DNA of 17,371 nucleotides, taken from assembly GCA_017529175.1 (NCBI GenBank), contig JAFXNX010000035.1:1-17371 (forward strand). Reading direction: 5' to 3'. Under the pieces are notes generated by a model. It ran no database searches. It was not told the origin of the DNA and was given only the letters and a program-made list of their open reading frames with translations. Source of the stretch: Clostridia bacterium. Lineage in GTDB: Bacteria > Bacillota_A > Clostridia > Oscillospirales > CAG-272. Position numbers and translations under genes: made by a program. Positions 855 to 16,165 of this stretch are shown piece after piece; within the stretch, counting starts at the first letter, position 1, and each line of letters starts with the position of its first letter.

Positions 855-856
855 GA

Positions 857-2551
857 TTATATCCTTTCCAACGCGATCTCGCGTTCAATGAGCTTTTCAA
901 ATTCCGCAGGGGGCAGGGGTTTTGAGAAGTAGTAGCCCTGGACGAGGTCGCACCCGTCTTTTTTGAGGATCTCGAGCTGACCTTCCGTTTCGACGCCCTC
1001 CGCGACTACCATGACTTTAAGATATTTTGCAATATCTATTATCAGCTTGACGAGCCTGCGGTCCGTCTCGCTCGTTTCCAGATTGCGTATGAATTTCATA
1101 TCAACTTTAAGAACGTCAACGGGCATTGTCGAGAGCATATTCAGCGACGAATAACCCGATCCGAAATCGTCCATTTCAATGTCGAAGCCGATGTTGCGAA
1201 GGGTCCATATAACGTCAAGAAGCTGGTTCGCGTTGTCGGTCGACGCGGATTCCGTGACTTCGAGTTTCAGATCGGAGAATTCAAATCCGTTATTCTGCAC
1301 GATCTTCTTCAGTTTCTCGACAAGCTCCGGATCGTATACGTCCGCGCGTGACAGATTTACCGATACGGGAAGTGTGATACCGTACTTCTCTTTCCACTGC
1401 GCGATCTGACGCGACGCCTCGTTCCATACGAAATCATCAATGATACTGATAAGACCGTTACCTTCGAACAGAGGAATGAAGCTGCCGGGCGATATCATTC
1501 CGAGTTCGGGATGATCCCACCTTATGAGCGCTTCCGCGCTCGAGAGCTTCGGCGGATCGCATTTGATATTGTATTTGGGCTGATAGTACACGACGAACTG
1601 TCTTGCGTCTATCGAGGAACGCAGATCGTTGAGAAGCCGCTGATTGAGAAGCTCGCGCTCTCTCATCTTGCCGTCGTATATCATAAGCGAGCGCTTGAAA
1701 TCTCCTCTTATCGCGTTGCAGTCAGCTCTCGCGCAGTCGAACGATACGACGGGATCAACTCCTTCATGCCACGGCATGACGCCCATGCGAAGACGTATTC
1801 TGACGTTTGACGACAGAGCGTTTACTCTGTCCTGAAAACGCCCGAGAACTTCGGCATAATCGTCGCGGTGGACGCAGTATATCTCGAAAGTATCCGCCTC
1901 GAGCCGTCCCGCGATACCCTCCGTCTGCGAAAGGAACGCGCGGATCTCGTCTCCTATATTTTTCAACACCTCGTCTCCGAACTCTCTGCCGGAGAGCGCG
2001 TTGAGCGAGTGGAACTGCTCGATATCGAGGACTATGGAATCAAGACACATCTCACTGTGATACATAAAGAGGCGGTTTGCGTATTCAAAGAAGAAGTTGC
2101 GGCTGTAAAGGCCGGTAAGGGAATCGCGCTCCGCCGCGGATATGAGGTGTCTGCCTTCGGAGAGTTCGATTATGCGCTCAACACGGGCAAGGATGACCTC
2201 ATGCATGTCGAAAGGCTTTGTGATAAAGTCCGCGGCTCCCATCTGCAGAGCTTTCAGCTCCGCGTTCTTTTCCGCCGTAAGAACGATGACGGGGATCGAG
2301 TGCATTGCCTCGTCCGCGTTCATGGCTTCGAGCACTTCAAAGCCGTTCATAACAGGCATTATGAGGTCGAGAAGTATTATCGACAAGTCTTCGATATTGC
2401 TCTTGATCTTCTCAAGCGCCTCGCGTCCGTCGCAGGCGTATATAACTTCGTATTCTTCTTCGAGAGTGATGCCGAGCGCGTCGCGGTTCGTCTCCTGATC
2501 GTCAACGACGAGCACGAGCCTTTTTCTGAAGATCTGTTTGGATCTTATCAT
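857..2551 (-). CDS. Response regulator: REC - degenerate GGDEF - EAL (c-di-GMP phosphodiesterase)
   Basis: A 564-residue cytoplasmic response regulator predicted to hydrolyse c-di-GMP to pGpG when phosphorylated or derepressed. The REC domain spans about 10-130, with acidic pair D17/D18, phosphoacceptor D62, T92 and K112. A GGDEF-type domain follows (about 140-290), but its active-site loop reads EADTF (218-222) instead of GGDEF, so cyclase activity is unlikely. The EAL domain (about 315-555) keeps SAEALIRW (E340), VTES, DDFGSGYSSL (D461/D462), K482, EGVET and QGYYFSKP, so it looks catalytic. The ATG at 2551 has an ideal AAAGGAG site and lies 19 nt after the kinase stop. An in-frame upstream ATG at 2635 would overlap the kinase gene and has no such site. 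The receiver probably takes phosphate from the downstream Hpt protein. Confidence 0.92.
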   Translation of the reverse strand: MIRSKQIFRKRLVLVVDDQETNRDALGITLEEEYEVIYACDGREALEKIKSNIEDLSIILLDLIMPVMNGFEVLEAMNADEAMHSIPVIVLTAEKNAELKALQMGAADFITKPFDMHEVILARVERIIELSEGRHLISAAERDSLTGLYSRNFFFEYANRLFMYHSEMCLDSIVLDIEQFHSLNALSGREFGDEVLKNIGDEIRAFLSQTEGIAGRLEADTFEIYCVHRDDYAEVLGRFQDRVNALSSNVRIRLRMGVMPWHEGVDPVVSFDCARADCNAIRGDFKRSLMIYDGKMRERELLNQRLLNDLRSSIDARQFVVYYQPKYNIKCDPPKLSSAEALIRWDHPELGMISPGSFIPLFEGNGLISIIDDFVWNEASRQIAQWKEKYGITLPVSVNLSRADVYDPELVEKLKKIVQNNGFEFSDLKLEVTESASTDNANQLLDVIWTLRNIGFDIEMDDFGSGYSSLNMLSTMPVDVLKVDMKFIRNLETSETDRRLVKLIIDIAKYLKVMVVAEGVETEGQLEILKKDGCDLVQGYYFSKPLPPAEFEKLIEREIALERI

Positions 2552-2570
2552 ATGGTTCTCCTTTCGCAGA

Positions 2571-4028
2571 TCACGCGTTTTCAATACATTCTCTGAGAGT
2601 CGAATAAAGCATATCCGCGTCCGCGGGCTTCGCAAGATGCGCGTTCATACCCGCCTCGAAAGTCTGTGCTATGTCGCTGTCAAACGCGTTTGCGGTAAGA
2701 GCTATTATCGGGATCGACTCGGCGTCCGGTCTTACGAGCGCTCTGATCGCCCTCGTCGCCGTAAGTCCGTCCATGACGGGCATACGAAGGTCCATAAGTA
2801 TCGCGTCGTAATATCCTTCGGGGGATGACTCAAACATTTCAACGCCGACCTTTCCGTTCTCGGCGTGTTCGCTCACTACCCCTTCAAGCTCGAGAAGGTC
2901 CGCGGCGATCTCCGCGTTTTCGGGTACGTCCTCGACTATGAGCACACGGCGTCCTTCGAGAGATACGCCGGATGCGTCGAGCATCGTGCCTCCGCCGTAG
3001 AGCGAAAGAGGAAGCGTGACGGTAAATTTCGTTTCGGTCCCTTTTTTGCTCTCGACCTCTATCGTACCTTCCATAAGAGCGACCATCTTCTTTGTCAGCG
3101 CAAGACCTATACCGCTACCGCCGTGAATGGTCGTCGAACTGTTGTCTTCTTTTGTGAACGCATCAAATATTTTGGGAAGGAAATCCTTGTCTATTCCGAC
3201 GCCGGTATCGTTTATCTCGAATTTGACAGCTCTCTCCTCGTCCATCCACGCGTCGGTGATGCTGAGCGAAACTTTTCCCGGCGCGTCGGTATATTTTACC
3301 GCGTTGTCGAGGATCGCGATGAGCACCTGTTTCAGCATCATCTCGTCGCCCTTGTACGCGCCGTCGATGCCGTCCTCCATATCAAGAGTATACTCAAGAC
3401 CCTTTTCATCGCACAGAGTGTTGATGATCGCGCTGACCTGCTCGATCGCTTCACCGAGCGAGAACGGAGCGCATTTTGCGGAAAGCTCGCCCGCTTCTAT
3501 GCTGTTCATGTCGAGAATGTTGTTGATCATTCCGAGCAGGTGCTTTGCGCTGGATCCTATCTTTTCAAGATAAGATCTCGTCGTATCCGGCACGTCCCGG
3601 TCTTTGAGCGCGATCGAGTCGAGCCCTATTATCACGTTCATCGGAGTTCTCATCTCGTGGCTGACAACGGAGAGAAATTCGTTCTTAACACGGCTGCTCT
3701 CCTGTTCCGCCATCAGTTTCGCTTCATTTCTCTCGTTTTCCACGATCCTGTTCGTGATTCGTTTGAGAAGGATATACATTATGAAAACGAAAACGCTTCC
3801 TCCGAACAGTATGGCTGAAACTATGATATTCGGTTCGACAAAAATACCTACCGCGATATATCCGAGCAAAAACATCACAAGAAGGAATATCGGGATATAA
3901 AGGATCGAATCGCTCCCGCCCGTGCGCTCGCGTCCCTTGATATAGAGCGCGTAGCGAATAAATCCGTATATGTTATATACCATCAGCGCACTTCCGAGAT
4001 ATATCATCCCGTAAATTATAAGATCCAT
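2571..4028 (-). CDS. Membrane hybrid sensor histidine kinase with C-terminal receiver
   Basis: A 485-residue hybrid kinase. Three hydrophobic segments (about 1-23, 42-64, 66-88) sit at the N-terminus with almost no extracytoplasmic domain, so the signal may be sensed in or near the membrane or through a partner. HisKA follows, with H-box SHEMRTPMN (H124). The HATPase domain shows the N-box LDNAVKYTD (N242), G1 DTGVGI (D274) and G2 GGSGIG (303-308). A receiver is at the C-terminus (about 362-485; phosphoacceptor D413 in MDLRMPVMDG, T445, K467). The ATG at 4028 is chosen because it has an AAAGGGGA site and the predicted promoter lies between it and a further in-frame ATG at 4124, which would therefore not be transcribed. 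It is the first gene of a unit encoding the whole relay. Confidence 0.92.
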   Translation of the reverse strand: MDLIIYGMIYLGSALMVYNIYGFIRYALYIKGRERTGGSDSILYIPIFLLVMFLLGYIAVGIFVEPNIIVSAILFGGSVFVFIMYILLKRITNRIVENERNEAKLMAEQESSRVKNEFLSVVSHEMRTPMNVIIGLDSIALKDRDVPDTTRSYLEKIGSSAKHLLGMINNILDMNSIEAGELSAKCAPFSLGEAIEQVSAIINTLCDEKGLEYTLDMEDGIDGAYKGDEMMLKQVLIAILDNAVKYTDAPGKVSLSITDAWMDEERAVKFEINDTGVGIDKDFLPKIFDAFTKEDNSSTTIHGGSGIGLALTKKMVALMEGTIEVESKKGTETKFTVTLPLSLYGGGTMLDASGVSLEGRRVLIVEDVPENAEIAADLLELEGVVSEHAENGKVGVEMFESSPEGYYDAILMDLRMPVMDGLTATRAIRALVRPDAESIPIIALTANAFDSDIAQTFEAGMNAHLAKPADADMLYSTLRECIENA

Positions 4029-4104
4029 CGTCTTCCCCTTTAAAAAGCTATATTCCGAACGACCCGCTTTATTGAGATCAGGCCGCAATACACCTATTTT
4101 ATTA

Positions 4105-4134
4105 ATTATATAATATTCGGTCATATATTGTCAA
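4105..4134 (-). promoter_or_regulatory. Sigma-A-type promoter of the phosphorelay operon
   Basis: Reading the minus strand, TTGACA (4134-4129) and TATAAT (4110-4105) are both perfect hexamers separated by 18 nt in very AT-rich DNA. The expected transcript start is near 4098, giving a leader of about 70 nt before the kinase ATG at 4028. No known riboswitch fold was recognised in that leader. Confidence 0.75.
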
Positions 4135-4192
4135 TATATTATAATATTTTTATATTCTATTTCTCTTCTGTCACACCGCGCGCGTTATACCG

Positions 4193-4220
4193 TTGACAAA
4201 ACGCTGTGTTTTGTGATAAA
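4193..4220 (+). promoter_or_regulatory. Promoter of the 54-residue orphan gene
   Basis: TTGACA (4193-4198) is followed after 16 nt by GATAAA (4215-4220), which is preceded by TGT and so makes an extended -10 element. The expected transcript start is near 4227, about 30 nt before the ATG at 4258. It diverges from the phosphorelay promoter at 4105-4134. Confidence 0.65.
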
Positions 4221-4257
4221 CTGTTTTTGAAAGTTATTATCATGAGAGGTTTGAAAA

Positions 4258-4422
4258 ATGGAAAAGCAAAAAGTCACGATAACCGTTATTACGGAAGGCG
4301 AAAAGTGCGAGATGAGCGACGGTGAGATAAAGGAATGGTACCGCGCGAACGTTTCAAAACTCTTCAACCCCGAATACGGAACTCCCGAAATATCGGTTGC
4401 GCTCGAAAGATGCGAAAAGTAA
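4258..4422 (+). CDS. Small hypothetical protein (54 residues)
   Basis: I do not recognise this protein. It starts MEKQKVTITVITEGEKCEMS, contains EIKEWYRANV and NPEYGTPEIS, and ends LERCEK. It is charged and soluble, with no membrane segment or signal peptide and with two cysteines (C17, C52). The pattern of an N-terminal strand, a central helix with an EWY core and a C-terminal strand would fit a compact alpha/beta fold, but that is inference. Support for a real gene is the near-consensus promoter, a GAGAGG ribosome binding site 8 nt before the ATG, a codon choice like its neighbours, and a terminator beginning just after the stop. It is the only short plus-strand gene between two minus-strand c-di-GMP genes; any functional link is unproven. 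Confidence 0.72.
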   Translation: MEKQKVTITVITEGEKCEMSDGEIKEWYRANVSKLFNPEYGTPEISVALERCEK

Positions 4423-4423
4423 A

Positions 4424-4463
4424 AAAACCGGCTGAATCAGAAAGCTCTGTTTCAGCCGGTTTT
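4424..4463. terminator. Bidirectional rho-independent terminator
   Basis: A hairpin with arms AAAACCGGCTGAA (4424-4436) and TTCAGCCGGTTTT (4451-4463), plus an inner CAGA/TCTG stem. The A-run on one side and T-run on the other let it act in both directions. It lies between the stop of the 54-residue gene (plus) and the stop of the 7TM-EAL gene (minus), which converge here. Confidence 0.85.
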
Positions 4464-4466
4464 ATT

Positions 4467-6386
4467 TCACTTCAAATGCTTTTTGATAAGTTCACGCTCG
4501 GGAACGGGGCGTGAGAAATAGTACCCCTGCATATAGTCCACTCCGAGAGACTTGAGCAGTTTGACCTGCGCCTCGGTTTCAACGCCTTCGACAAGGATAC
4601 CGACGCCGATCTGTTTGAGCATACGTACGTTGTTCTCGAGGATTATCATTCCGAGCTCGCTCTTTTCCGCTTCCCAAAGGATCGACTTGTCTATCTTGAT
4701 AACGTCGAAATCCATAGAGAAGATCGCCTGGACGTTCGAATAACCCGTTCCGTAATCGTCGAGGTATATGTGAAATCCGTTTTGCTTGAGCTGACTTACG
4801 ACCGTCCTCACCACCTCGTAGTCGCTCGTATCGGCGGACTCGGTGATCTCAAAGCATATCTGAGATTTGTCCACCCCCGACTCTTCGACAACGGCGGTCA
4901 CATGATCCGCAAATCCGGGCTTTATGCACTGGAGGACCGAAAGGTTCACGTTTATACAGTTTATTCCGAGCCCTGACGGCACTCCGCTCTTGAGGAAATT
5001 GCAAACGCTCGACAGAACGTAGTCGTCTATATCCCCGATCATTCCGTTATACTCCGCGATAGGGATGAACTCGCCCGGATAAAGCCTTCCGAGCTTTTCA
5101 TCGTTAAGACGGATGAGCGCTTCCGCGCCGTAAAGTTTCAGTCCGTCCGCGCTGTAAGTCGGCTGATAAAAGACCACGAACGAGCCGTTGGCAAGGCCTT
5201 TTTGCATCGAACTTTCGACGTAACGTCTGCGGAGCAGATAAGCGAGGTCTTCTTTTCCGATAAGGCACTTTTTATGTTCGTGCGGAAGAAATCCGTCGAC
5301 CATATCGAAAAGGTCTTCCGTTGTTTCAATGTCGCCGGGAAGCCTTGCGAGCATTACCGTGGCGGAGAGCAGGACGTCTGTGTGCTGAACGGTCCACGCT
5401 TCGTCAAATCTTTCGCTGAGTTTTTCCGCAAAGGCCGTCGCTTCGGCGGCGCTCTCGTTCATAAGAATTATGACGAACGTGTCGGGAGCCGTCTTGTATA
5501 TGCTGTATCGCGGAACGTATTTGACAAGCTCGCGGTACATGAGGTCCGAGAGGATCTCCGTGTTGGCGGATCCCGTGACGCGTCTTACGATGTCCGAATT
5601 CTCTACCTTGACGCATGCGACGTGGAAGTTCTGGTCGTTCGTGATATAAGTGTCGATATCGATTTTAAGCGCCTTGCGGTTGTAAAGCCCGACGTCTCCG
5701 TCAATAAGGTCATCCTCGTTCTCGACAGTCAGAAGGAGTCCGAGATATGCGACCGATTCCGCGAACAGTTCTATGCGAATGCTCGAATGGATCATCTGAA
5801 GAATGATCCCGACGAACACCATGAGAAGAAAGTACACCAGCGCGATGCGGCGTTTTTTTGTTATGGCTTTCCACGAGCCGAACAGATTTGCAATAAAGAA
5901 TATAATGTAAAACGCGGAGATCACGTAAAGGGCGGTGACGCCCCATCCGCGTTGGTATTCAAACGGGACCTTGCCGAACGAGAAACACCACAGATGGATC
6001 GGGTTTGTTATCATCAGCGCTTCAATAAACAGTACGGGAAGCCCGAAAAGGGTGTAACCGAGCTTGCTGAAACGTCTTAACCTTCCGGTTATGCTGAGTC
6101 CGTAATATCCGAGGATCGGCAGGACCGCGGTGTGAGATATGAAATAAACGTATTTGCAAAGAGTCAGTATGACGGGGATCGCGCTGCTGTCCGCGTGATG
6201 CGAAAACGCGACCTCATACACGGTCTCGGTGACCGTGTTGAGAACCAGAATTATCAACATCCACAAATACATTTTCTTCTGCGGCTTGTCGACGCGGTTC
6301 TGGATATATGTATAGACTATGCAAGTCATAGTTATTAGAAAAGCGGCGATATGAAAAGCCACTCCCATGTAACCGTAGTCTGTCAT
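4467..6386 (-). CDS. 7TM - degenerate GGDEF - EAL protein (putative c-di-GMP phosphodiesterase)
   Basis: A 639-residue membrane protein. Seven hydrophobic segments occupy the first third (about 8-28, 39-57, 69-97, 109-126, 149-170, 181-199, 207-222), a sensor-like 7TM module. A GGDEF-like domain follows: VGLYNR at 232-237 is the usual start, but the catalytic loop reads TAPDTF, so cyclase activity is not expected. The EAL domain (about 395-630) is complete: GAEALIRL (E422), EITES, DDYGTGYS (D543/D544), KIDKS (K564), EGVET and QGYYFSRP. The predicted reaction is c-di-GMP to pGpG at the membrane. The start at 6386 has a GGAGAGGG site. A longer frame opens at 6425, but that codon sits at or before the predicted transcript start. 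It is transcribed alone, from its own promoter to the terminator at 4424-4463. Confidence 0.9.
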   Translation of the reverse strand: MTDYGYMGVAFHIAAFLITMTCIVYTYIQNRVDKPQKKMYLWMLIILVLNTVTETVYEVAFSHHADSSAIPVILTLCKYVYFISHTAVLPILGYYGLSITGRLRRFSKLGYTLFGLPVLFIEALMITNPIHLWCFSFGKVPFEYQRGWGVTALYVISAFYIIFFIANLFGSWKAITKKRRIALVYFLLMVFVGIILQMIHSSIRIELFAESVAYLGLLLTVENEDDLIDGDVGLYNRKALKIDIDTYITNDQNFHVACVKVENSDIVRRVTGSANTEILSDLMYRELVKYVPRYSIYKTAPDTFVIILMNESAAEATAFAEKLSERFDEAWTVQHTDVLLSATVMLARLPGDIETTEDLFDMVDGFLPHEHKKCLIGKEDLAYLLRRRYVESSMQKGLANGSFVVFYQPTYSADGLKLYGAEALIRLNDEKLGRLYPGEFIPIAEYNGMIGDIDDYVLSSVCNFLKSGVPSGLGINCINVNLSVLQCIKPGFADHVTAVVEESGVDKSQICFEITESADTSDYEVVRTVVSQLKQNGFHIYLDDYGTGYSNVQAIFSMDFDVIKIDKSILWEAEKSELGMIILENNVRMLKQIGVGILVEGVETEAQVKLLKSLGVDYMQGYYFSRPVPERELIKKHLK

Positions 6387-6428
6387 GATACCCTCTCCGA
6401 TGTTATGACGTTCGTCATTTAACAATTT

Positions 6429-6596: not shown

Positions 6597-6623
6597 CAAA
6601 ATAATAATGTCTGGAGATTGATT

Positions 6624-7553
6624 ATGGATCAGAAAATGAGACTTGTTACAAGAAGCGACTTCGACGGACTCGCTTGCGCTATGATGCTCAGAGAGCTTTC
6701 ATTGATAGACGAGATCAAGTTCGTTCATCCCAAGGACGTTCAGGACGGAAAGATCGAACTTTCCTCAAATGATATCACGACAAACCTTCCCTACGACCCC
6801 CGCGTCGCGATCGCGTTCGACCATCATGAATCGGAGATCGACCGTCTCAAAGCGAAAGAAGTAGGCGGAAAACTCGTCATCGACCCGAACGCAAGAAGCG
6901 CCGCGCGCGTCGTTTACGATTATTACGGCGGAAAAGAAAAGTTCAAGTGCATAAGCGAGGAGCTGATGGCGGCGGTCGACAAGGGCGACAGCGCAGACTT
7001 CACTCTCGACGAAGTTCTACACCCCGAAGGCTGGGTGCTTCTCCACTTCTTAATGGACCCCCGCACGGGACTCGGACGCTTCCGCAATTTCCGCATTTCC
7101 AACTACGACCTCATGATGGAGCTTATCGGTTACTGCATGAACCACACCATCGACGAGATCCTCGCGCTTCCCGACGTTGCGGAGCGCGTCGAGCTTTACC
7201 GCGAGCAAGCCGAACTCTTTGAAGCTCAGCTGAAGCGCATCGCAAAGGTAAAAGGCAAGGTCGTCGTACTCGACCTTCGCGAAGAGGAGATTATCCACGC
7301 GGGCAACCGCTTTATGATCTACGCGCTCTATCCCGACGCACAGATCTCCGTTCACGTCGCGTGGGGCTTCCACAAGCAGAACACCGCGGTCATGATCGGA
7401 AAATCCATTTTCAATAAAGCGTCAAGCGTCGATATCGGCGAGCTCTGCCTCAAATACGGAGGCGGCGGACATCACAACGCAGGTACCTGTCAGCTCGATA
7501 ACGACGTCGTCGACGCGGAGCTTGTCAACATTATCAAAGCACTTAACGAATAA
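6624..7553 (+). CDS. DHH/DHHA1-family phosphoesterase
   Basis: A 309-residue soluble phosphoesterase of the DHH superfamily, which includes oligoribonucleases, pGpG/pAp hydrolases and exopolyphosphatases. The N-terminal metal motifs are TRSDFDGLACA (D12, D14) and the DHH motif itself (D66-H68, in FDHHES). A further acidic motif is VDKGDSAD (117-124). The C-terminal DHHA1 substrate loop is GGGGHHNAG (279-287). The subfamily lacks the first histidine often seen before the DxD motif and instead has the RSDFDG form. The ATG at 6624 follows a GGAGA site with good spacing; a TTG two codons earlier overlaps that site and is unlikely. It is a single-gene unit, divergent from the 7TM-EAL gene. Substrate is not determinable by eye; pGpG or nanoRNA is an attractive guess because of the neighbour. 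Confidence 0.87.
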   Translation: MDQKMRLVTRSDFDGLACAMMLRELSLIDEIKFVHPKDVQDGKIELSSNDITTNLPYDPRVAIAFDHHESEIDRLKAKEVGGKLVIDPNARSAARVVYDYYGGKEKFKCISEELMAAVDKGDSADFTLDEVLHPEGWVLLHFLMDPRTGLGRFRNFRISNYDLMMELIGYCMNHTIDEILALPDVAERVELYREQAELFEAQLKRIAKVKGKVVVLDLREEEIIHAGNRFMIYALYPDAQISVHVAWGFHKQNTAVMIGKSIFNKASSVDIGELCLKYGGGGHHNAGTCQLDNDVVDAELVNIIKALNE

Positions 7554-7570
7554 TAAAAACCCATACAGCA

Positions 7571-7611
7571 AAAACGCCTTTGAGGCCCGTACGGTCTCAA
7601 AGGCGTTTTTT
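7571..7611. terminator. Bidirectional rho-independent terminator
   Basis: Arms AAAACGCCTTTGAG (7571-7584) and CTCAAAGGCGTTTTTT (7596-7611) around an 11-nt loop that can itself pair. It lies between the converging stops of the DHH gene (plus, 7553) and the last gene of the eight-gene operon (minus, 7623), and the A/T flanks allow use in both directions. Confidence 0.88.
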
Positions 7612-7622
7612 ATAGATTTTTA

Positions 7623-8843
7623 TCAATATGAGTAAATATAAAGTGTCATCGCGACGTGTACGGCGATCATCGTTCCGAGAATAATGATCTGTTTGAGCCG
7701 ATGCTTCGTCAAAAGCCCCGCAAACTCTCTTACCGCCGCGTTCGGCCAGAAATACCACTTCGTCTTCGCTCCCATTCCGACTGCGCGCATCTTGACGCGG
7801 CGAGCGAACAGTCCGCTTCGGAAAACGTGGTAATTTGTCGTCGAGAAAGCTATCTTTGCCGACGGGTCGATCGCATATATCTTCTCTTTTGAAAACTTCA
7901 TGTTTTCGTAAGTGTCGCTCGAACTGTCCTCTTCGATTATCCGTTCCTCCGGAACACCGTGTTCCATAAGATAACGCTTTATCGCAAAGCTCTCCGACAC
8001 CGGCTCGTCCGGCCCTTTTCCTCCGGAAGCTACGAACGTTGCCTCTTTATCCGCAGTCTCTTTCTGTCTGACGTAAAAGGCGAGCGCGCGGTCGATCCTT
8101 CCTTTGAGAAGAGGAGTCGGCGTACCGTCGCGCCTCAAGCCGCACCCGAGAATGATTATAAAGTCCTTGTCGCGATCCGGTTCATACCGCGCGGCAATAT
8201 AATCCGCCGCTATCGCGCCGATCAGCATACACTCAAAATACAGATATATCGCGGCAAAAAGGTTGAGCGCAAGGTCGTGTATCATAACGTAAGTTTCACT
8301 GCCGGAAACCTCGTAGTCAAAGAAGAAGATAAAAGCTCCTCCCGCAACGATAAGAAAAGACAGCAAGATCCCGAGAAGGTTGACCGGACGTCGCCCTTCA
8401 TGGCGTATCAGCGAAATATTCGATATGCACAAGGCGGCTGAAAAAGCAAGCAGAAACGGACACGTCAGTATCATATACTCTTTCGCCGAGTACAGCAGAG
8501 TGTATATGATCGCGCGTTCATTGTATACTTCCGGATGACTGAACGAACGAACAGCGAGAACTATATGCGCCGCCATAATGAACAGCGCGAATATCGCAAA
8601 CCCGAAATAAAAGATCGTATTGTACGAATACGGATTATACTTTATCTGTTCTCTGAAAGTATAAAGAAGCAAAAGAGACGCCGAAAAGCAGTATACTGCC
8701 ACCGTAACGCAGGCGACGCCGGCGTTTCCCGACGGATCTCTCATCAGAAGCGCCGCCGTAATAATCGCCGCGATAACGGTCAGCGCGAGTAAATTATACA
8801 GCTTCGGTTTTTTGTCCCTCGTATCGAAAGGAAGCAGTTTCAT
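7623..8843 (-). CDS. Membrane DUF218 (YdcF/ElyC/SanA-like) protein
   Basis: A 406-residue integral membrane protein. The first half has several hydrophobic segments (about 17-34, 42-63, 76-99, 122-141, 155-175, 190-213). A DUF218 domain follows (about 226-365): DFIIILGCGLRRDGTPT, LKGRIDRAL, VASGGKGPDE, SESFAIKRYL, EEDSSSDTYENM and FSTTNYHVFRSG are the family blocks. A last membrane segment (384-404) closes the protein. Members of this family (ElyC, SanA, YdcF) are linked to envelope integrity, but their biochemical activity is largely unsettled. The ATG overlaps the stop of the PHP gene in an ATGA arrangement, so translation is probably coupled. It is the second DUF218 protein of the operon and its last gene. 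Confidence 0.87.
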   Translation of the reverse strand: MKLLPFDTRDKKPKLYNLLALTVIAAIITAALLMRDPSGNAGVACVTVAVYCFSASLLLLYTFREQIKYNPYSYNTIFYFGFAIFALFIMAAHIVLAVRSFSHPEVYNERAIIYTLLYSAKEYMILTCPFLLAFSAALCISNISLIRHEGRRPVNLLGILLSFLIVAGGAFIFFFDYEVSGSETYVMIHDLALNLFAAIYLYFECMLIGAIAADYIAARYEPDRDKDFIIILGCGLRRDGTPTPLLKGRIDRALAFYVRQKETADKEATFVASGGKGPDEPVSESFAIKRYLMEHGVPEERIIEEDSSSDTYENMKFSKEKIYAIDPSAKIAFSTTNYHVFRSGLFARRVKMRAVGMGAKTKWYFWPNAAVREFAGLLTKHRLKQIIILGTMIAVHVAMTLYIYSY

Positions 8844-9703
8844 TTCTCAAACATCTCCAGGAAACGTTTCAATCCCTCGGGATATTCTGTCACGTCCTCA
8901 AGCCCGGTATCGCCGAGCCTTACCATCTTGTTCGTGCCGTGGTAATCGCTTCCCGCGGTGATGAAAAGACCGAATTCATCGGCAAATGATATCGCCTCTT
9001 GACGCAGTTTGTCGGAAAAGCCGGAATAAAACGCCTCTATACCGCGAAGTCCGTATCCCACAAGTCTCGAAAGTCTTCCGCGCATCTCGTCCCCGAGGAT
9101 CAGCTCGTCCCCGCTGCCGTAGAACGGGTGGGCAAGGACGGGGATCCCTCCGCCGTCAATGATACCGTGTATCGCTTCTTCCGGGGAGATATATTCGCTC
9201 TTGACGCGGATCTTGTTGATAAATTCCTTTATCGCCTGCTCCTTTGTCTTCGCGTAACCGTACTTCACCATAAGGTTGCCGATGTGCGGTTTACCCGGGT
9301 TGTCAAGCGAGAGCAGCGTCTCAACGTCTTCAGCGGAAAACGATATGCCGAACTCCGTTTTTAAAAGTTCGATGCGGATCACGATCTTTTTCATGCGGAT
9401 CCCGTGTCCGTGATCGATCAGAGCGCGTATCGGCGCGCTCTCCGGATCGAAACCGTAGCCGAGGATATGATACTTACCGTTACTGTCACGGCACGAAAAC
9501 TCCGCTCCGGGAATAAAGCGTGGAGAGTCATGTGAAAGCTGCTCCTTTATCATCCCGGCGGCTTTCACGGCGTCGTGATCGGTCACCGAAAAGGCGGAAA
9601 TTCCCGCTTCCTTTACTTTTTCAAGCAGTTCAGGAGGAGTATCTGTACCGTCCGAAACAGTCGTATGTAAATGAAGGTCTATCTGTGCAGGTCTGTCTGT
9701 CAT
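8840..9703 (-). CDS. PHP-domain metal-dependent phosphoesterase (YciV/TrpH-like)
   Basis: A 287-residue soluble PHP-family hydrolase, similar in plan to the YciV/RNase AM group that acts on nucleotide 3',5'-bisphosphates or RNA 5' ends. All metal-binding blocks are visible: DLHLHTTVSDGT (H11, H13, D18), TDHD (41-44), GAEFS (E68), H79, AHP (H192), E223 and GSDYHG (D253, H255). The insertion between about 90 and 185, with KPHIGNLMVKYGY, is also typical of that group. The ATG at 9703 begins 8 nt after the stop of the STAS-kinase gene; an in-frame TTG at 9715 would instead overlap it by 4 nt. Neither has a clear ribosome binding site, which suggests coupled re-initiation. It overlaps the next gene by 4 nt. 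Confidence 0.88.
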   Translation of the reverse strand: MTDRPAQIDLHLHTTVSDGTDTPPELLEKVKEAGISAFSVTDHDAVKAAGMIKEQLSHDSPRFIPGAEFSCRDSNGKYHILGYGFDPESAPIRALIDHGHGIRMKKIVIRIELLKTEFGISFSAEDVETLLSLDNPGKPHIGNLMVKYGYAKTKEQAIKEFINKIRVKSEYISPEEAIHGIIDGGGIPVLAHPFYGSGDELILGDEMRGRLSRLVGYGLRGIEAFYSGFSDKLRQEAISFADEFGLFITAGSDYHGTNKMVRLGDTGLEDVTEYPEGLKRFLEMFEK

Positions 9704-9711
9704 TACATTAT

Positions 9712-10869
9712 TCAAAAGCAGAGAGTGTCGTGCTTTTCAAGAAGCGGGACGAGCTTTTCCATCCAAAGCGCCTTTGTCTCTTCGTTATCGGGACCCGGAT
9801 GTCTTGTTCTCCAGTCGATAAGGTATGCGTACGAAACGCAGCGGATCTTTTCATCGACTTCGTCGATCTTCGCGTCGTCCGTCGTGCCGATGTACGCGCC
9901 GAGCGCAGCGCGCCAGAATCTTCTTGAGATATCGGCGTCAAAGCCCTGGAACGAAAGAACTATCGACGGATCGTATTCGGAGTATCCGACGTACGAGTTA
10001 TACATACGCGAAAGGTCGAATATGGGGTGACCTACAGACAGCGTATCCATATCGATTACAAGCACTTCGTCCCCTGCGAGAACGATGTTCTTCGTATGGA
10101 AATCGCCGTGGAGCATGTGGTTACTCTCCGGGATATCGTCGATCATCCTCATCAGTTTATAACCGAGAGCGCCCGGCAGAGATCCCTGCATCCTCGAGAT
10201 GCCTTTCGCGATCTTTTCCTTGAAATTCGGGAGCTTGCCTTCCGGCACTTCGATCGAGTGGATGTTCTTCAGCATCTTGACGTATTCCGAAACGCACCAG
10301 TCGAAGCGTTCGGGCTCGTGCGCGAGAATTTTTGCGAACGAGCGGGCGTTGAGAAGCTCAAATACGGAGCCGTAGCTGTCGCCGACGCGAACGACGTCGT
10401 AAGAGATCGCCGTGGGAACGCCGAGAATGAGCGCAAGGCGGGCAACTTCCCTCTCGTGCTGTATCTCTGCGAGCGCGTCGGCGTTCTTGTACGTTTTGAC
10501 GACGTTGTCCTTATCGATACGGTAAACTTTTCCGTTGAATCCTTCTCCGATGACCTCGCACCCTTCGACCGATACGACGCGGTACGCTTTTTCTACCGTC
10601 ATCATTTCGGTAAATCCGGTCATCTCGAATATCTCGTATACTTCGGGTATGACGTTTATTACCCTCATTGACGGATGAGACTTCTTTACGCGCAGAATGA
10701 CTCTGAGTCCTGCGCTGGAAATGTATTTAAGTTCTTCGGCGTCAATGATGACCGTGCCGTCCGTGCATCCCGAAAGCTGTTCGGTGATGCTCTGCTCTAC
10801 CTCTGCCGCGTTACCGGAATCTATCCTTCCGGAGAGTTTGACCGTTGCGACGTTCTGATTGTTTTCCAT
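9712..10869 (-). CDS. STAS domain fused to APH/choline-kinase-like phosphotransferase
   Basis: A 385-residue cytoplasmic fusion. Residues 1-95 form a SpoIIAA/RsbV-like STAS domain; the phosphoserine position of SpoIIAA aligns with S52 in YISSAGLRVIL. Residues about 100-385 form an aminoglycoside-phosphotransferase-like kinase: glycine loop GEGFNGKVYRI (108-118), ATP lysine K125 in VVKTYK, catalytic HGDFHTKN (D256, N261) and the metal-binding VIDMDT (D273). The kinase part resembles a widespread APH-like family of unknown substrate (TIGR02172, from memory) rather than a resistance enzyme. The ATG at 10869 has an AAAGGAAA site, 31 nt after the VanX-like gene. The STAS domain should be readable by the same HATPase kinase and PP2C phosphatase encoded upstream, so phosphorylation of S52 may control the kinase part. 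Substrate unknown. Confidence 0.85.
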   Translation of the reverse strand: MENNQNVATVKLSGRIDSGNAAEVEQSITEQLSGCTDGTVIIDAEELKYISSAGLRVILRVKKSHPSMRVINVIPEVYEIFEMTGFTEMMTVEKAYRVVSVEGCEVIGEGFNGKVYRIDKDNVVKTYKNADALAEIQHEREVARLALILGVPTAISYDVVRVGDSYGSVFELLNARSFAKILAHEPERFDWCVSEYVKMLKNIHSIEVPEGKLPNFKEKIAKGISRMQGSLPGALGYKLMRMIDDIPESNHMLHGDFHTKNIVLAGDEVLVIDMDTLSVGHPIFDLSRMYNSYVGYSEYDPSIVLSFQGFDADISRRFWRAALGAYIGTTDDAKIDEVDEKIRCVSYAYLIDWRTRHPGPDNEETKALWMEKLVPLLEKHDTLCF

Positions 10870-10900: not shown

Positions 10901-11557
10901 TTATTTTTTCAAATATTGTGATGATACCGGAAACTCAAAATATGTGTTCGGATAAGGTTCGTCTTCGAGGCAAAAATGCCACCATTCGCACTCGAGAGGC
11001 GCAAACCCTGCGCGCATCATCGCCTTTCGGAGCGTCATGCGGTTTTTATACTGTTCTTCGGTGATACCGCCGTAGTCCGGATGAGAGACCTCGTCGAACA
11101 GATCGAACGGGCTCCCCATATCGACCTCTTTTCCGGTCTTCATATCGAGAAGCGTCAGATCGACCGCGCTGCCTCTGCTGTGAGAAGAGTTCTTTGCGAT
11201 ATATCCCTTCGCGAAAAGCTCCTGCTTTTCAAGACCGGGATAAAAGTATTCCTTCATACGTACGTCCTGATCTTCGATACCCCAAAGTATGAAATGCTTC
11301 ACCGCAGAGAGCGGTCTGTAGGCGTCGAAGACTTTGAGACGGTATCCCTGAACTATGAGCTCGCCCGCCGCGCTCTTCAGCGCCCGCGCCGCCTCCTTCG
11401 TTATAAGCGCGCACGGCTCTTCATAGCCGTCGATGCGCTCTCCGATAAAGTTGTAGGTAGAATAGTAACGTATCTCCTGAACGACGTGCGGAACAAAGTC
11501 GGCAAGAAGAACGAACCCGGAGGGGTCCATTTTATAATTCTCTTTCAGATCTTTCAT
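10901..11557 (-). CDS. VanX-type D-alanyl-D-alanine dipeptidase (peptidase M15D)
   Basis: A 218-residue zinc dipeptidase predicted to split D-Ala-D-Ala. The catalytic set is complete: R81 (AYRP), zinc ligands H126 and D133 (SSHSRGSAVDLTL), catalytic E191 and ligand H194 (EWWHF). These are spaced exactly as R71, H116, D123, E181 and H184 of enterococcal VanX. There is no signal peptide, so it should act in the cytoplasm. ATG 11557 is the outermost start, with a GGAT site close by. The internal ATG at 11530 would give a 209-residue protein whose N-terminus lines up better with VanX, so the start is uncertain. No VanH or ligase gene is nearby, which argues for D-Ala salvage or envelope remodelling (as for DdpX) rather than glycopeptide resistance. 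Confidence 0.9.
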   Translation of the reverse strand: MKDLKENYKMDPSGFVLLADFVPHVVQEIRYYSTYNFIGERIDGYEEPCALITKEAARALKSAAGELIVQGYRLKVFDAYRPLSAVKHFILWGIEDQDVRMKEYFYPGLEKQELFAKGYIAKNSSHSRGSAVDLTLLDMKTGKEVDMGSPFDLFDEVSHPDYGGITEEQYKNRMTLRKAMMRAGFAPLECEWWHFCLEDEPYPNTYFEFPVSSQYLKK

Positions 11558-11600: not shown

Positions 11601-12479
11601 TCAATTAAGCGGAGGCAGTTCATGAATATCGTAGTTATCGTAATAAATTTCAAAAGCGGTCTCGATGTCTCCCGACAGTTCGATCAGCGCTCCCGCCTGG
11701 AACATTGTCGAAAGAGTGCCGGACGGCGCCTTCCATGCGGCGTTCGATACTACCTCGAGTCTTTCGTTGCCGGGCGTATTCGCTCTTATGATCGCTTCCG
11801 CCTTGAAGAGAAGCTCTCCCGTCGCGATATGATAATCGCTCGAGACTATCGCAAGCTTCTTCACGCTCGGGTAAAGACACGTCAGTATATCGTATGTAAA
11901 TATCGCGTTCTGCGCGGTCGTTATCGAATTGTCCTCCACTATCACGCGGTCCTTGTCGATCCCGTTTTCGATGAGCCACTTCGCCATCTCACCGGCTTCG
12001 CTCGCGTCCTCGTTTTCGGCTGCGGTCCCGCCTCCGGTGCAAACGATGTACGCGTTCGGGTACTTCTCCGCGCTGTTCTTCACGACCTTAAGACGTTCGA
12101 TCAACTCATCCCGCATCGTCCCGTCCGGCTCGAGCTGGAACCCGAGAGCGACTATGCACAGTTCGTCCGTATCGGGCAGACCGTCCGGCAGAACGTCATA
12201 GTTGATCGTCTTGCCGAGCTCCGGCGACGTCCATACGGAAACGATGTCTTTCCAGCGCGCGGCGGCGCTTGAGTCAACTCCTTCAAGCTCTTTGAGAAGC
12301 TCGTTTATCCTGTTTTCGGCTTCGGCGCCGTAAGTCGCGTGGTCGACCGCTATCTCTTCGATTATTTCCTGAACGCTCCGTCCCGCATCGGCATTATCGC
12401 TTTTGCATCCCGGCAGGATGCAGATGAGGGAAAGCGCAAGAATGAGCGCTGACACAGCTTTGAGAAATCTGTTTTTCAT
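11601..12479 (-). CDS. DUF218 (YdcF-like) lipoprotein
   Basis: A 292-residue exported lipoprotein. The N-terminus is MKNRFLKAV followed by a hydrophobic stretch and the lipobox ILPGC, with the lipidated cysteine at C25. After a helical spacer (about 35-90) comes a DUF218 domain: ALGFQLEPDGTMRDELIERL, YIVCTGGGTA, SEAGEMAKWL, VEDNSITTAQNA and IVSSDYHIATGELLF. The domain should lie on the outer face of the cytoplasmic membrane. It differs in topology from the other DUF218 protein in this operon (7623-8843), which is multi-pass. The start has a GAGGA site 7 nt upstream, 28 nt after the MATE fusion gene. Activity of the family is not established. Confidence 0.87.
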   Translation of the reverse strand: MKNRFLKAVSALILALSLICILPGCKSDNADAGRSVQEIIEEIAVDHATYGAEAENRINELLKELEGVDSSAAARWKDIVSVWTSPELGKTINYDVLPDGLPDTDELCIVALGFQLEPDGTMRDELIERLKVVKNSAEKYPNAYIVCTGGGTAAENEDASEAGEMAKWLIENGIDKDRVIVEDNSITTAQNAIFTYDILTCLYPSVKKLAIVSSDYHIATGELLFKAEAIIRANTPGNERLEVVSNAAWKAPSGTLSTMFQAGALIELSGDIETAFEIYYDNYDIHELPPLN

Positions 12480-12507: not shown

Positions 12508-14268
12508 CTATATTGTCAGAGTCAGGTTGTTGAGCCCGAGCGAATTTATGTATCTTGCCTCTTTTACGGTCCCCATCACCATCCGGAGCCCGATATGAGC
12601 GGCGGGGTCGTCGCTCTGATGGAGCTTCAGATACTCTGTCGGATCGAATCTGACGCAGTTGTCCCTCACACGGATTATCCGGCTGTTCTCGTCGATGACG
12701 AGACGTATGTCGACGTTGTGCGAGAGATTGTCCTTTGTAAATCCGTGTTCTATGACGTTGACTGTAATTTCTTCCACGGAAAGGCTTATCAGCATAGACA
12801 TCTTTCTGTCAAATCCCTTATCGCGGCAAAAATCGCATATTTTCGCAGACGCTTCCGTCGCCTCTTCGACCGATACGACACTGCACTCGAAGCAGTCGTC
12901 GGGCGAAGGCGCAAAATCAGGTTCAAGCATACTGTACGCGCCGGCGGAAAACGATACTTTGCGGTTATGACGCCATGCGATAACGGAAAGCGCAAGAAAC
13001 GTAACGCTCTCTCCGCATACGAACCCGAGCCAGATGCCGTTCAGACCGATAAAGCGGCTGAGTACGAACGCGAACAAAACGGTGAACACAAAATTCTGAA
13101 GGACCGATATGATCTCGGAAAGGCGGAGTCTGTTCACTCCCTGGAAATAGTTTTTAAACGCCGAATTGAGCGACGACGGCAGGATCGACAGCGAGAAAAG
13201 ACGAAGTCCTGTCACGGCGATATCTTTCGCTGCTTCCGACTCTTCTCCGGTCAGGAAAAGCGTGATAAGAGGAGTTGCCGCGGCGACGCCGACTGCGACT
13301 ACTATCGCGTCAAGAATTACGGCGTATCGCGTCATTACTCTTACAAGTTCCGTGATAGAAGTACGGTCCCGCTCCGCGTAGAAAATGGCGGCGAGCATCA
13401 TTGCCACCATACCGATACCCGAGCCGAAGCAGTACATTATATTACCCACCGTGCTTATTACGGAATACGCGGCGACAGCACGCGTGCCCTCGACGCTTAT
13501 CAGGAGCTGATTGATTATGAATACGAGCATGACCATGCTCACCTGATTCACAACTGTCGGAACACCGTATGAAACGAGCTCGCGTCCCGCTTTAAAACGT
13601 ATGAGTTTGCGGCGGAAGCGGAACATACAGTCTTTTTTGAAGAAATACGTGACGCCGATCACGAACGCTATATAATAACTGAGAGTCGAGCCGAGCCCCA
13701 TTCCGAACGTGTTCCATTTGACGACGAAAACGTTCAGAAGGTCGAATATTATGTCGGACACCGTCATTGCTATGACCGCGCTGACAAGACGTCCGCGCGA
13801 GCCCGAAAGCTGCATATACGGCACCATTATCTGCGCGCAAAGGAAAGCCGGCGCGCCGATTATAAATCCGGTGATATAGTCCTTCGTAAGCCCGAAGACC
13901 GGGTTGTCCGCCCCGGCGCTTCCCGCGCCGAGCAGAGTCGTCAGCGGATCTATGAAAAGCAGCACCGCGACAAGTCCCACGGCGGAGATCGCCGCCGCAA
14001 GGAAGACTGATATGGAAAAGCATCCGTTTGTCCCTTCGCGGTCTCCCTTTCCCATCGTCTTTCCGCACATGACCTGCACGCCGGACGAAATAAGGCTGCC
14101 GAGCGCCGCGAACACGAGAAGCAGCGGACTTGCAAGCCCGTAAGCGCTCATCGCGTCGACTCCGAGAAAACGACCGATCATAATGCTGTCTATCAGCATA
14201 CATATCGTGACCGTCATCGTTGATACTATCTGTGTCAACAGCATTTGCCGGAACAGTTTTTTTATCAT
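12508..14268 (-). CDS. MATE-family transporter fused to RsbW-like HATPase (anti-sigma-type kinase) domain
   Basis: A 586-residue fusion. Residues 1 to about 435 are a full-length MATE-type efflux carrier of about 12 membrane segments; blocks include LIDSIMIGRFLG (25-36), ASPLLLVFAALG (46-57), SGSRGRLV (155-162) and FKNYFQGVNRLRLSEI (371-386). A linker rich in acidic residues leads into a cytosolic HATPase_c_2-type domain (about 462-586). Its N-box is SVEEITVNVIEHGF (E500, N504, with the four-residue spacing of SpoIIAB E46/N50), the G1-like motif is RVRDNCVRFDPTEY (D536) and the G2-like motif is HIGLRMV (558-564). It ends with the family's LGLNNLTLTI strand. Such domains bind and phosphorylate STAS proteins, and one is encoded two genes upstream. 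The gene starts 45 nt after the phosphatase gene. Confidence 0.9.
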   Translation of the reverse strand: MIKKLFRQMLLTQIVSTMTVTICMLIDSIMIGRFLGVDAMSAYGLASPLLLVFAALGSLISSGVQVMCGKTMGKGDREGTNGCFSISVFLAAAISAVGLVAVLLFIDPLTTLLGAGSAGADNPVFGLTKDYITGFIIGAPAFLCAQIMVPYMQLSGSRGRLVSAVIAMTVSDIIFDLLNVFVVKWNTFGMGLGSTLSYYIAFVIGVTYFFKKDCMFRFRRKLIRFKAGRELVSYGVPTVVNQVSMVMLVFIINQLLISVEGTRAVAAYSVISTVGNIMYCFGSGIGMVAMMLAAIFYAERDRTSITELVRVMTRYAVILDAIVVAVGVAAATPLITLFLTGEESEAAKDIAVTGLRLFSLSILPSSLNSAFKNYFQGVNRLRLSEIISVLQNFVFTVLFAFVLSRFIGLNGIWLGFVCGESVTFLALSVIAWRHNRKVSFSAGAYSMLEPDFAPSPDDCFECSVVSVEEATEASAKICDFCRDKGFDRKMSMLISLSVEEITVNVIEHGFTKDNLSHNVDIRLVIDENSRIIRVRDNCVRFDPTEYLKLHQSDDPAAHIGLRMVMGTVKEARYINSLGLNNLTLTI

Positions 14269-14313
14269 TTTTCTGTCATCCTATTCTGTAATCATTTCAA
14301 AGTGAAACGGAGT

Positions 14314-15777
14314 TTATCCTCTGTACTCAAGACAAAGCATCGTAAGGTCGTCGAACTGCTCGGCGTCTTTGACGAATCCGTCGACGGCGCGGCGCACGTT
14401 CTTGAGGGTCTGCTCGACAGACGCCGAACAGTCGGCGTTCAGCGCCGCGATCATACGTTCCGCACCGAACATCACGCTGTTGACGTCAGTCGCTTCCGGC
14501 ACGCCGTCTGTGTAAAGAAACAGTTTTGATCCGGGTTCGAGCGTCAGTTCATATTCTTTATATTTCAGCCCCTGCATACCGCCGATAACGAATCCGTGCT
14601 TATCCTTCAGTAACTCAAACGGACCGCAAGGCGTTTTGAGTACCGGGTACTCGTGTCCCGCGTTTGCGGCAACGAGTCTGCCCGAGGAGATCTCGAGTAT
14701 CCCGAGCCAGACAGTAACAAACATTTCTTCGCTGTTGCTGGCGCAAATGGACGCGTTTGTGTCGTATAAAATTTGAGCAGGGCTTTTTCCCATCTTCGCG
14801 TTGTTCGCAAGAATGATCTTCGACGCCATCATGAACAGCGCCGCGGGTATGCCCTTTCCGGAAACGTCTGCGATGACTATACAAAGATGATCGTCGTCGA
14901 CGAGGAAGAAATCGTAAAAATCTCCGCCGACTTCCTTTGCGGGATCCATCTTCGCATATATGTCGAATTCAGTCCGGTCCGGAAACGCGGGGAATTCATT
15001 CGGAAGCATATTGCCCTGTATACCCGTCGCAAGGTCCAGTTCAGACTCTATGCGCGCGCTCTTTAAGTCCTTTTCGTGTTGAACGACGACCATGTCACGG
15101 CCGCGTCTTGCGATGTTGTAGCTGATGATCGATACGATAAGGAACATAAACCATCTCGGCAGATAGTCGAAGAGCAAGGTGTTGACGACGAGCATCTTGT
15201 CATCGGCTCCGGCGTTCTGTATCGCTTCTCCGAGAAATCCCCCGGTCGCGACCATCTGCGTGCCGGCGGGAAACGTGACGATATTCAGGTTGATAAAGCC
15301 GTGCGTCGCTCCCCAGGCGGCGGACGCCAGAAATACCACGGTCGTTAATACAGCGGTGAAAACGGTGAGCCGCTTCGAAAAATATCTGCTGCTGAATACG
15401 ACCGGAATGATCATAAGGATCGCCGCCTTGTGAGTCAGCATACTGTCAAGTCTTGCGTACACGATAACAAGGCCGAGCAAAAGGATCGGCTTGAGCCACC
15501 ACGCGTCATACTTTACGATAACGCAGGCGGCGATCAGCACGGCGATCTCCGCTATCGCCTGTATAGACGGAGCGGCGACAGACTCCCACGGAAGCAGAAA
15601 GAAGCCCAGCGCGGTAAGGATCAATATTATGATAAGGATTATACCGCTGCAAAACAATATCAGCGCGCCGAGGCGGTTTGCTTGAACTTCCGTCTTGCGG
15701 AACATCTCGTCTGACGTCAGCGCGCTTTTGAGACGTTTCCAAAAAGAGAGCTTGTTTGCGCTGCTGGTATTTTTCAT
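14314..15777 (-). CDS. Membrane SpoIIE/RsbU-family PP2C serine phosphatase
   Basis: A 487-residue membrane phosphatase. About six hydrophobic segments fill the first 225 residues (about 37-63, 71-89, 95-109, 117-129, 137-155, 205-222), with a loop of about 50 residues between the fifth and sixth that could sense a ligand. A short coiled linker (230-250) leads to a PP2C_SIGMA/SpoIIE domain (about 255-485) with all metal sites: EVGGDFYDF (D286), IADVSGKGIPAALF (D304), ANAGHEYP, LYTDGVPEA (D424) and QFDDLTM (D476/D477). It should dephosphorylate the STAS protein encoded just upstream. The two genes overlap in TAATG (1 nt), indicating translational coupling and roughly equal output. Confidence 0.93.
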   Translation of the reverse strand: MKNTSSANKLSFWKRLKSALTSDEMFRKTEVQANRLGALILFCSGIILIIILILTALGFFLLPWESVAAPSIQAIAEIAVLIAACVIVKYDAWWLKPILLLGLVIVYARLDSMLTHKAAILMIIPVVFSSRYFSKRLTVFTAVLTTVVFLASAAWGATHGFINLNIVTFPAGTQMVATGGFLGEAIQNAGADDKMLVVNTLLFDYLPRWFMFLIVSIISYNIARRGRDMVVVQHEKDLKSARIESELDLATGIQGNMLPNEFPAFPDRTEFDIYAKMDPAKEVGGDFYDFFLVDDDHLCIVIADVSGKGIPAALFMMASKIILANNAKMGKSPAQILYDTNASICASNSEEMFVTVWLGILEISSGRLVAANAGHEYPVLKTPCGPFELLKDKHGFVIGGMQGLKYKEYELTLEPGSKLFLYTDGVPEATDVNSVMFGAERMIAALNADCSASVEQTLKNVRRAVDGFVKDAEQFDDLTMLCLEYRG

Positions 15778-16076
15778 TATTCTATCGTCAGAATATCCGC
15801 GAAACCTGTGACCTCGAACACTTCCATAACAGTTTCATTTACGTTGCAGACCTTCATGCTTCCCTGCGCCATCATTACCTTCTGTACGGAGAGCAGAACG
15901 CGAAGCCCCGCGGATGAGATATATTCAAGATCTTTAAAGTCGAACGTCAGTTCCGTCAGTCCCGGAAGCGTTTTTTTGACCGCGCTTTCCAGATCGGGAG
16001 CCGTCACGGTGTCAAGGCGTCCTTCAAGAGCGATGATCGCTTTTCCGTTTTCGACCTTTTCGTTTATGTTCAGCAT
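15777..16076 (-). CDS. STAS-domain anti-sigma factor antagonist-like protein (SpoIIAA/RsbV type)
   Basis: A 99-residue single STAS domain. The switch loop YISSAGLRVLL (52-62) aligns with the SpoIIAA loop FMDSSGLGV, placing the phosphoacceptor at S55. In a partner switch, the unphosphorylated protein binds an RsbW-like kinase and is inactivated when that kinase phosphorylates it; a PP2C phosphatase reactivates it. Both enzymes are encoded downstream in the same unit. The start at 16076 has a very strong GGGAGGA site. The sequence is clearly related to the STAS part of the STAS-kinase fusion at 9712-10869, sharing YISSAGLRV and the C-terminal VFEVTGFADILTIE / IFEMTGFTEMMTVE block. No sigma factor gene accompanies it. 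Confidence 0.93.
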   Translation of the reverse strand: MLNINEKVENGKAIIALEGRLDTVTAPDLESAVKKTLPGLTELTFDFKDLEYISSAGLRVLLSVQKVMMAQGSMKVCNVNETVMEVFEVTGFADILTIE

Positions 16077-16136: not shown

Positions 16137-16165
16137 ATTATATACAATATATTAACTAATTTCAA
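16137..16165 (-). promoter_or_regulatory. Sigma-A-type promoter of the eight-gene partner-switch operon
   Basis: On the minus strand TTGAAA (16165-16160) and a perfect TATAAT (16142-16137) are separated by 17 nt. The expected start is near 16130, with a leader of about 54 nt before the STAS ATG. It lies just past the terminator of the transhydrogenase gene, so the operon is independently transcribed. Confidence 0.75.

Follow-up and report, generated by a model that had tools for sequence, protein, structure and literature searches.

A MATE transporter carrying a divergent anti-sigma-type HATPase domain: a candidate transporter-linked partner switch in Clostridia

The stretch analyzed here, referred to as the window, is the 17,371-nucleotide contig JAFXNX010000035.1 of a Clostridia bacterium (GenBank assembly GCA_017529175.1). 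It harbors an operon-like run of eight genes, all on the minus strand, which begins with genes encoding a lone STAS protein, a membrane PP2C phosphatase and a MATE transporter fused to a divergent HATPase_c_2 domain. We see about an even chance that these genes comprise a partner-switching module with a membrane transporter as its output, in which the divergent tail of the MATE protein would be the receptor of the STAS protein. This reading draws on gene content, recurring linkage, altered residues at the ATP site and the predicted fold. An original prediction, made from the letters of the window alone, had already placed three adjacent open reading frames (ORFs) at this site, and all three were recovered there on the minus strand. 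Genes were annotated by homology rather than by longest-ORF calling, because G+C-rich shadow ORFs spoiled the latter.

In the fusion protein, both MatE and HATPase_c_2 scored above their Pfam cut-offs. The full-length model (mean predicted local distance difference test score, pLDDT, 85.5) had its best fold match in the PfMATE type (E 8e-15), and residues 8-425 match PfMATE and DinF-BH by sequence as well as by fold, with the key Asp positions kept. D27 and D176, invariant in 31/31 sequences, align to D41 and D184 of PfMATE, which we take to be those key positions. Unlike the window fusion, the solved MATE proteins matched by sequence are chains of 440-492 aa lacking a HATPase tail. The predicted fold of the tail is that of SpoIIAB, RsbW and UsfX. 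A search with the HATPase part gave 299 candidates, 153 of which were proteins reaching E <= 0.001, and MatE and HATPase_c_2 were both present in 119 among the 120 matches listed. Scanning species genomes yielded 358 matching stretches, of which 80 were retained as loci; by their titles, they belong to Clostridia of the rumen and other gut sites, and almost all are metagenome-assembled genomes. MATE-HATPase is a gene family. The family is not common, since only 10 of 398 genomes in a phylum-wide sample matched the MATE-type HATPase domain at E <= 1e-10; the nine besides the centre genome comprised seven MATE fusions and two PP2C-HATPases. On plasmids, no record matched at 60% identity, and 3 of the 53 matching records spanned 80% of the query, at 21-25%. 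The domain combination has been annotated by machine, under the JGI name "Na+-driven multidrug efflux pump/anti-sigma regulatory factor". Several genomes (loci L144 and L149-L156) hold two or more MATE frames of ~600 aa, some with strongly degenerate tails, and the family therefore has paralogues.

The original prediction regarded the MATE-borne domain as an RsbW-like kinase and held that the three genes supply every catalytic part of the switch. The fusion and the anti-sigma fold stood up to analysis; the kinase label and the claim of a full catalytic set were not supported. In the window copy, Cys538 (codon 12655-12657) takes the place of the G1-box glycine, His558 (codon 12595-12597) that of the first G2-box glycine, and Arg562 lies two positions past the kept glycine. 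All six ATP-site letters were kept in none of 94 MATE-borne domains, in a tally of loci up to L161, in comparison with 52/52 canonical HATPases, the latter gathered with a profile from four canonical copies that favours intact ones and the former with a profile of their own. The G1-box glycine is replaced by Cys in 84/94 MATE copies, and the first G2 position is never Gly (94/94). The N-box Asn has been lost in 9/94 copies and the G1 Asp in 4/94, and eight of those nine still adjoin STAS or PP2C. The altered ATP site, in combination with a separate canonical kinase in relatives, leaves the MATE domain unsupported as a kinase; this divergent domain is probably not a kinase. In a distant locus outside the 94-copy set (L171:6208-7929), which may represent an evolutionary intermediate, the MATE-HATPase tail has GGLG and the N box intact and carries Ala in place of the G1 glycine. 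Between STAS and MATE-HATPase, L024:7266-7859 encodes a protein of ~200 aa without a Pfam match, whose cluster was found in seven loci; it shows an N-box-like stretch by eye and is perhaps a further degenerate HATPase.

The separate canonical HATPase takes several forms in relatives. HATPase_c_2 was detected at the C-terminus of a fusion of STAS with an APH phosphotransferase (82.6 bits in L005, 85.5 in L040) and at that of PP2C (76.6 bits in L022, 75.2 in L019), and free-standing copies occur in L024, L030, L032, L036 and L056. Its profile matched 43/43 MATE-HATPase genomes at E <= 1e-25, with a single match in 35. The five weakest genomes scored 119-167 bits; on visual inspection they keep ExxxN, DxG and GGLG, and the gene lies beside or inside that of PP2C in four of them. 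SpoIIAB-like ORFs in eight of nine sigF regions score 13-29 bits with the same profile and the ninth region shows none; on such scores the canonical HATPase of relatives is distinct from SpoIIAB. In a 150-genome family sample it was present in 36 genomes, namely 9/11 of those whose MATE-type HATPase is strong (at least 60 bits) versus 27/139 others (p 4e-5, or 7/9 and p 5e-4 without two genomes known beforehand), and STAS-APH in 22, namely 6/11 versus 16/139 (p 0.0015, or 4/9 and p 0.02), all p values ignoring shared ancestry, in genomes of unstated completeness. MATE-type domains also occur in nine further genomes, and in every one of these HATPase_c_2 of at least 69 bits was seen outside the MATE frame, SpoIIAB not being distinguished in this count.

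The co-occurrence of STAS, PP2C and MATE-HATPase in other genomes, which the original prediction had put forward as a check, was borne out. Thirty-nine loci have full flanks, with at least ~6 kb to either side. In 21 of these, a neighbour matching STAS, PP2C, canonical HATPase or STAS-APH with 40 bits or more lies no further than 6 kb away on the strand of MATE-HATPase; by type, canonical HATPase was found in 18, STAS in 18, PP2C in 15 and STAS-APH in nine. Two loci with 14- and 18-bit matches (L012, L043) were dropped from this strict count, and their inclusion gives 23/39. When all 80 loci including contig ends are considered, 38 are linked, 17 of these with STAS, PP2C and canonical HATPase together. 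None of these four gene types was found in 20 plain-MATE control regions, hand-chosen from 12 of the same genomes and fully flanked in 16, so that the fully flanked comparison is 21/39 versus 0/16 (Fisher p 1.2e-4); within 1.5 kb, the counts are 27/63 MATE-HATPase versus 0/28 plain-MATE loci. In each of the seven distant out-of-sample loci, PP2C lies on the same strand no more than 4 kb away (as two frames in L170), along with STAS in three and a strong canonical HATPase in two. On the gene tree, which omits L120, L121, L144, L152 and L156 as loci with repeat or second copies, linked loci fall to either side of the deepest forks. The linkage label, which here retains L012 and L043, changes 12 times versus a shuffled mean of 14.5, and 32/500 shuffles were as low, on a quick tree with long branches. 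Seven of the 18 unlinked loci (L010, L012, L014, L016, L017, L029 and L038), picked for STAS-APH already seen in their genomes, were followed up, and all seven genomes encode STAS, STAS-APH and canonical HATPase away from the MATE-HATPase locus. L202 shows a degenerate MATE-type HATPase end followed by a PP2C-canonical HATPase and then STAS; the other MATE-HATPase locus of this genome, L021, is unlinked, so that a linked and an unlinked copy coexist in one genome.

The STAS and PP2C proteins of the window conform to their families, as had been predicted. The STAS protein exceeds the TIGR00377 cut-off, and S55 (codon 15912-15914) falls, in an alignment by eye, at the position of the phosphorylated serine, presumably the counterpart of SpoIIAA S58; the SSA-GL site is present in 56/60 STAS copies from the loci analyzed. 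The PP2C protein has a hydrophobic, multi-pass N-terminal part of ~220 aa (by hydropathy) followed by the SpoIIE-type domain, whose metal sites are complete (GGDFYD at 284, DVSGKG at 304, TDG at 423 and FDDLT at 475); all four motifs occur in 40/44 PP2C copies scoring >200 bits. Its sensor part varies: the multi-pass form also occurs in L019 and L040, and a form matching the N-terminus of that in L005 lies near MATE-HATPase in 8/80 loci. The L005 protein (L005:5845-8004) bears an extracellular dCache_1 sensor (Pfam, 68.7 bits). Serine phosphatases have been placed among the dCache_1 receptors of autoinducer-2 in a rumen study (PMC9540692).

The run also encodes a STAS-APH fusion, absent from the earlier account. 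Many relatives carry the canonical HATPase after STAS-APH in a three-domain STAS-APH-HATPase protein, and the window protein ends where its L040 homologue runs on into the HATPase. It scores 108 bits against TIGR02172, under the cut-off of 228, with the HGDxxxxN motif present. Genomes G100 and G181 likewise have short STAS-APH ORFs (385 and 396 aa), with the canonical HATPase on PP2C on another contig.

The claim that no sigma factor is encoded in the window was confirmed by a Pfam scan covering 14 of its proteins. SigBFG matches above the cut-off were detected in 33/43 MATE-HATPase genomes and are probably sporulation SigG and SigF. In 14 genomes, no sigma-70 region 2 was found within 7 kb of the cluster among the matches listed (E to ~1e-9, a range that weak extracytoplasmic function factors may escape), the nearest of these matches being 7.3 kb away in G023.

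In the proposed switch, the membrane PP2C would sense a signal and dephosphorylate STAS at S55, and an RsbW/SpoIIAB-like kinase, in relatives the separate canonical HATPase, would rephosphorylate it. The divergent HATPase domain, at the cytosolic end of the MATE protein, would be the docking site of unphosphorylated STAS, whose binding would alter transport. The MATE-borne domain, with its anti-sigma kinase fold, would act as a receptor and not as the main kinase, and STAS-APH would probably form an additional arm of this switch. Phosphorylation, docking, gating, the signal and the substrate are what we infer here. From the topology of MATE transporters it follows that the tail should lie on the cytosolic side. 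A transporter-linked output is plausible given the recurring association, the lack of a linked sigma factor among the matches listed in the 14 genomes and the STAS-binding anti-sigma fold; an altered anti-sigma kinase tail that often adjoins switch genes suggests that a transporter, not a transcription factor, is under control. As to direction, the sequence is compatible both with STAS gating the transporter and with transporter state being reported to STAS. More tentatively, and with somewhat greater doubt, we propose a recurrent Clostridia system in which a partner switch gates a transporter through a pseudo-kinase STAS-docking receptor, without a transcription step.

Several observations weigh against the proposed switch. 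No HATPase_c_2 besides the MATE-borne one was found in six frames of the window, and 5/7 phylum-wide MATE loci have no strong separate canonical HATPase nearby. In 18/39 close relatives, MATE-HATPase has no switch neighbour on its own strand within 6 kb. Covariation of the MATE HATPase with STAS (mirror-tree) is weak (partial r 0.24, 26/999 permutations) and no stronger than that with PP2C (partial r 0.31, 24/999). The N-box Glu is kept in 94/94 MATE copies, the Asn in 85/94 and the Asp in 90/94, and L171 keeps its G2 glycines, so that ATP binding or residual activity is possible.

With the canonical kinase absent from the window, the MATE-borne HATPase could itself be the switch kinase here, transporter conformation setting STAS phosphorylation and the transporter being a sensor rather than an output. 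This is how the original prediction read the domain, with the direction left open. In its favour, most copies retain the catalytic Glu, Asn and Asp, and L171 has an intact GGLG and N box. We nonetheless consider it unlikely, as the G1 and G2 glycines are replaced as described, eight of the nine copies that lost the N-box Asn still adjoin STAS or PP2C, and the canonical profile matched in every one of the 43 genomes.

Rather unlikely, too, is that the cluster acts on a sigma factor whose gene lies elsewhere, with MATE-HATPase as an extra competitor for STAS or a membrane titrator of it. SigF/SigG-type factors are indeed encoded in 33/43 genomes, and a study on Mycobacterium smegmatis presents RsbW3 as an antagonist acting through protein contact (PMC7693655). 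However, no sigma factor was linked among the matches listed in the 14 genomes, a separate SpoIIAB lies beside sigF in 8/9 sigF regions, and the recurring fusion to a transporter would be left unexplained. An improbable further reading is that the fusion and the genes around it (VanX-like, DUF218, PHP and APH) have their role in envelope or small-molecule metabolism, the HATPase tail being stabilizing or nucleotide-sensing and having no STAS partner. The VanX-like, PHP and two DUF218 genes of the run and the 18/39 loci without switch genes within 6 kb would agree with it, but the neighbours that recur are canonical HATPase, STAS and PP2C (18, 18 and 15 of 39), PP2C adjoins 7/7 distant loci, and VanX lies near MATE-HATPase in only 4/80 loci and DUF218a in only 5/80.

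To our knowledge, partner switches end on a sigma factor or, in few cases, on cyclase or secretion control. The cluster resembles SpoIIAA/SpoIIAB/SpoIIE and RsbV/RsbW/RsbU of Bacillus in its STAS phospho-site serine, SpoIIE-type PP2C and anti-sigma-type HATPase of SpoIIAB/RsbW fold; it differs in that no linked sigma factor was seen among the matches listed in the 14 genomes and that a HATPase copy with an altered ATP site sits on a MATE protein. The SiaABCD system of Pseudomonas aeruginosa differs in having no transporter fusion and in the phosphorylation of SiaC on Thr68. SiaABC is reported to be a partner switch serving a non-sigma output (PMC7647112). In M. smegmatis, kinase and anti-sigma roles are reported to be divided among RsbW homologues (PMC7693655); RsbW1/RsbW2/RsbW3 with RsfB is thus alike in its split roles and different in its sigma output and lack of a transporter. 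In SLC26/SulP proteins a partner-switch-type domain is likewise tied to a transporter, the only such link mentioned in the accessible portion of a review of STAS-only proteins (PMC8256260), but there the tail is STAS itself, whereas here it is a STAS-binding fold and STAS is free. No paper describing a MATE-HATPase fusion or its cluster was found among those listed in full-text searches of the open-licence literature.

Table 1. Features of the STAS/PP2C/MATE-HATPase gene run in the window.
Feature	Position	Strand	Evidence
STAS anti-anti-sigma-like protein, 99 aa	15777..16076	-	TIGR00377 70.6 bits (cut-off 53.45); PF01740 51 bits
Membrane PP2C phosphatase (SpoIIE/RsbU type), 487 aa	14314..15777	-	PF07228 158 bits
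MATE transporter fused to divergent HATPase_c_2, 586 aa	12508..14268	-	PF01554 97 bits; PF13581 33.4 bits (cut-off 27.4)
Divergent HATPase domain, residues 459-586	12511..12894	-	E500, N504, D536 kept; C538, H558 replace glycines
DUF218 gene	11601..12479	-	PF02698 64 bits; 28-nt gap
D-Ala-D-Ala dipeptidase-like (VanX/Peptidase_M15)	10901..11557	-	PF01427 142 bits; 43-nt gap
STAS-APH fusion (STAS + phosphotransferase), 385 aa	9712..10869	-	PF01740 52 bits, PF01636 51 bits
PHP-domain phosphoesterase	8840..9715	-	PF02811 35 bits; 4-nt overlap with STAS-APH
DUF218 membrane protein, final gene of run	7623..8843	-	PF02698 90 bits; 4-nt overlap
Promoter-like site TTGAAA-17-TATAAT, 11/12, best one	16137..16165	-	Upstream of STAS; consensus match only
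Terminator-like hairpin, 18 pairs, past last gene	7570..7610	+	Consensus match only

The genes of the run are tightly spaced (Table 1): the PP2C start overlaps the STAS stop (-1 nt), 45 nt separate PP2C from MATE-HATPase, and the subsequent gaps are 28, 43, 31, -4 and -4 nt, leading through DUF218, the VanX-like dipeptidase, STAS-APH and PHP to the second DUF218 gene. The VanX-like protein scores 207 bits against NF033115, below that model's cut-off of 320, and in 12/80 loci a PHP gene shares the strand of MATE-HATPase and lies no more than 6 kb from it. The VanX-like and two DUF218 genes hint at an envelope theme. Promoter-like sites numbered 14 in 9.1 kb versus 8.1 expected in shuffled sequence, and terminator-like sites 14 versus 10.8, the 18-pair stem after the run being the longest. 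Elsewhere in the window, positions 480-6425 encode Hpt, response regulator-GGDEF-EAL, hybrid histidine kinase and EAL proteins, a second signalling block that suggests cyclic di-GMP control next door. A 311-aa protein at 6618-7553 (+) matched nothing in Pfam or NCBIfam at the limits applied; its start looks DHH-like by eye. PADLOC gave no defence-system match for the five proteins tried.

Together, these observations tie the same switch parts to a transporter bearing an altered copy of the kinase fold; the gene tree is deep, and an intact kinase is encoded in these genomes as well. If the proposed switch is true, a classic bacterial switch would gain a new class of output, and a natural pseudo-kinase receptor would become available for study, amenable to clear two-protein binding tests.

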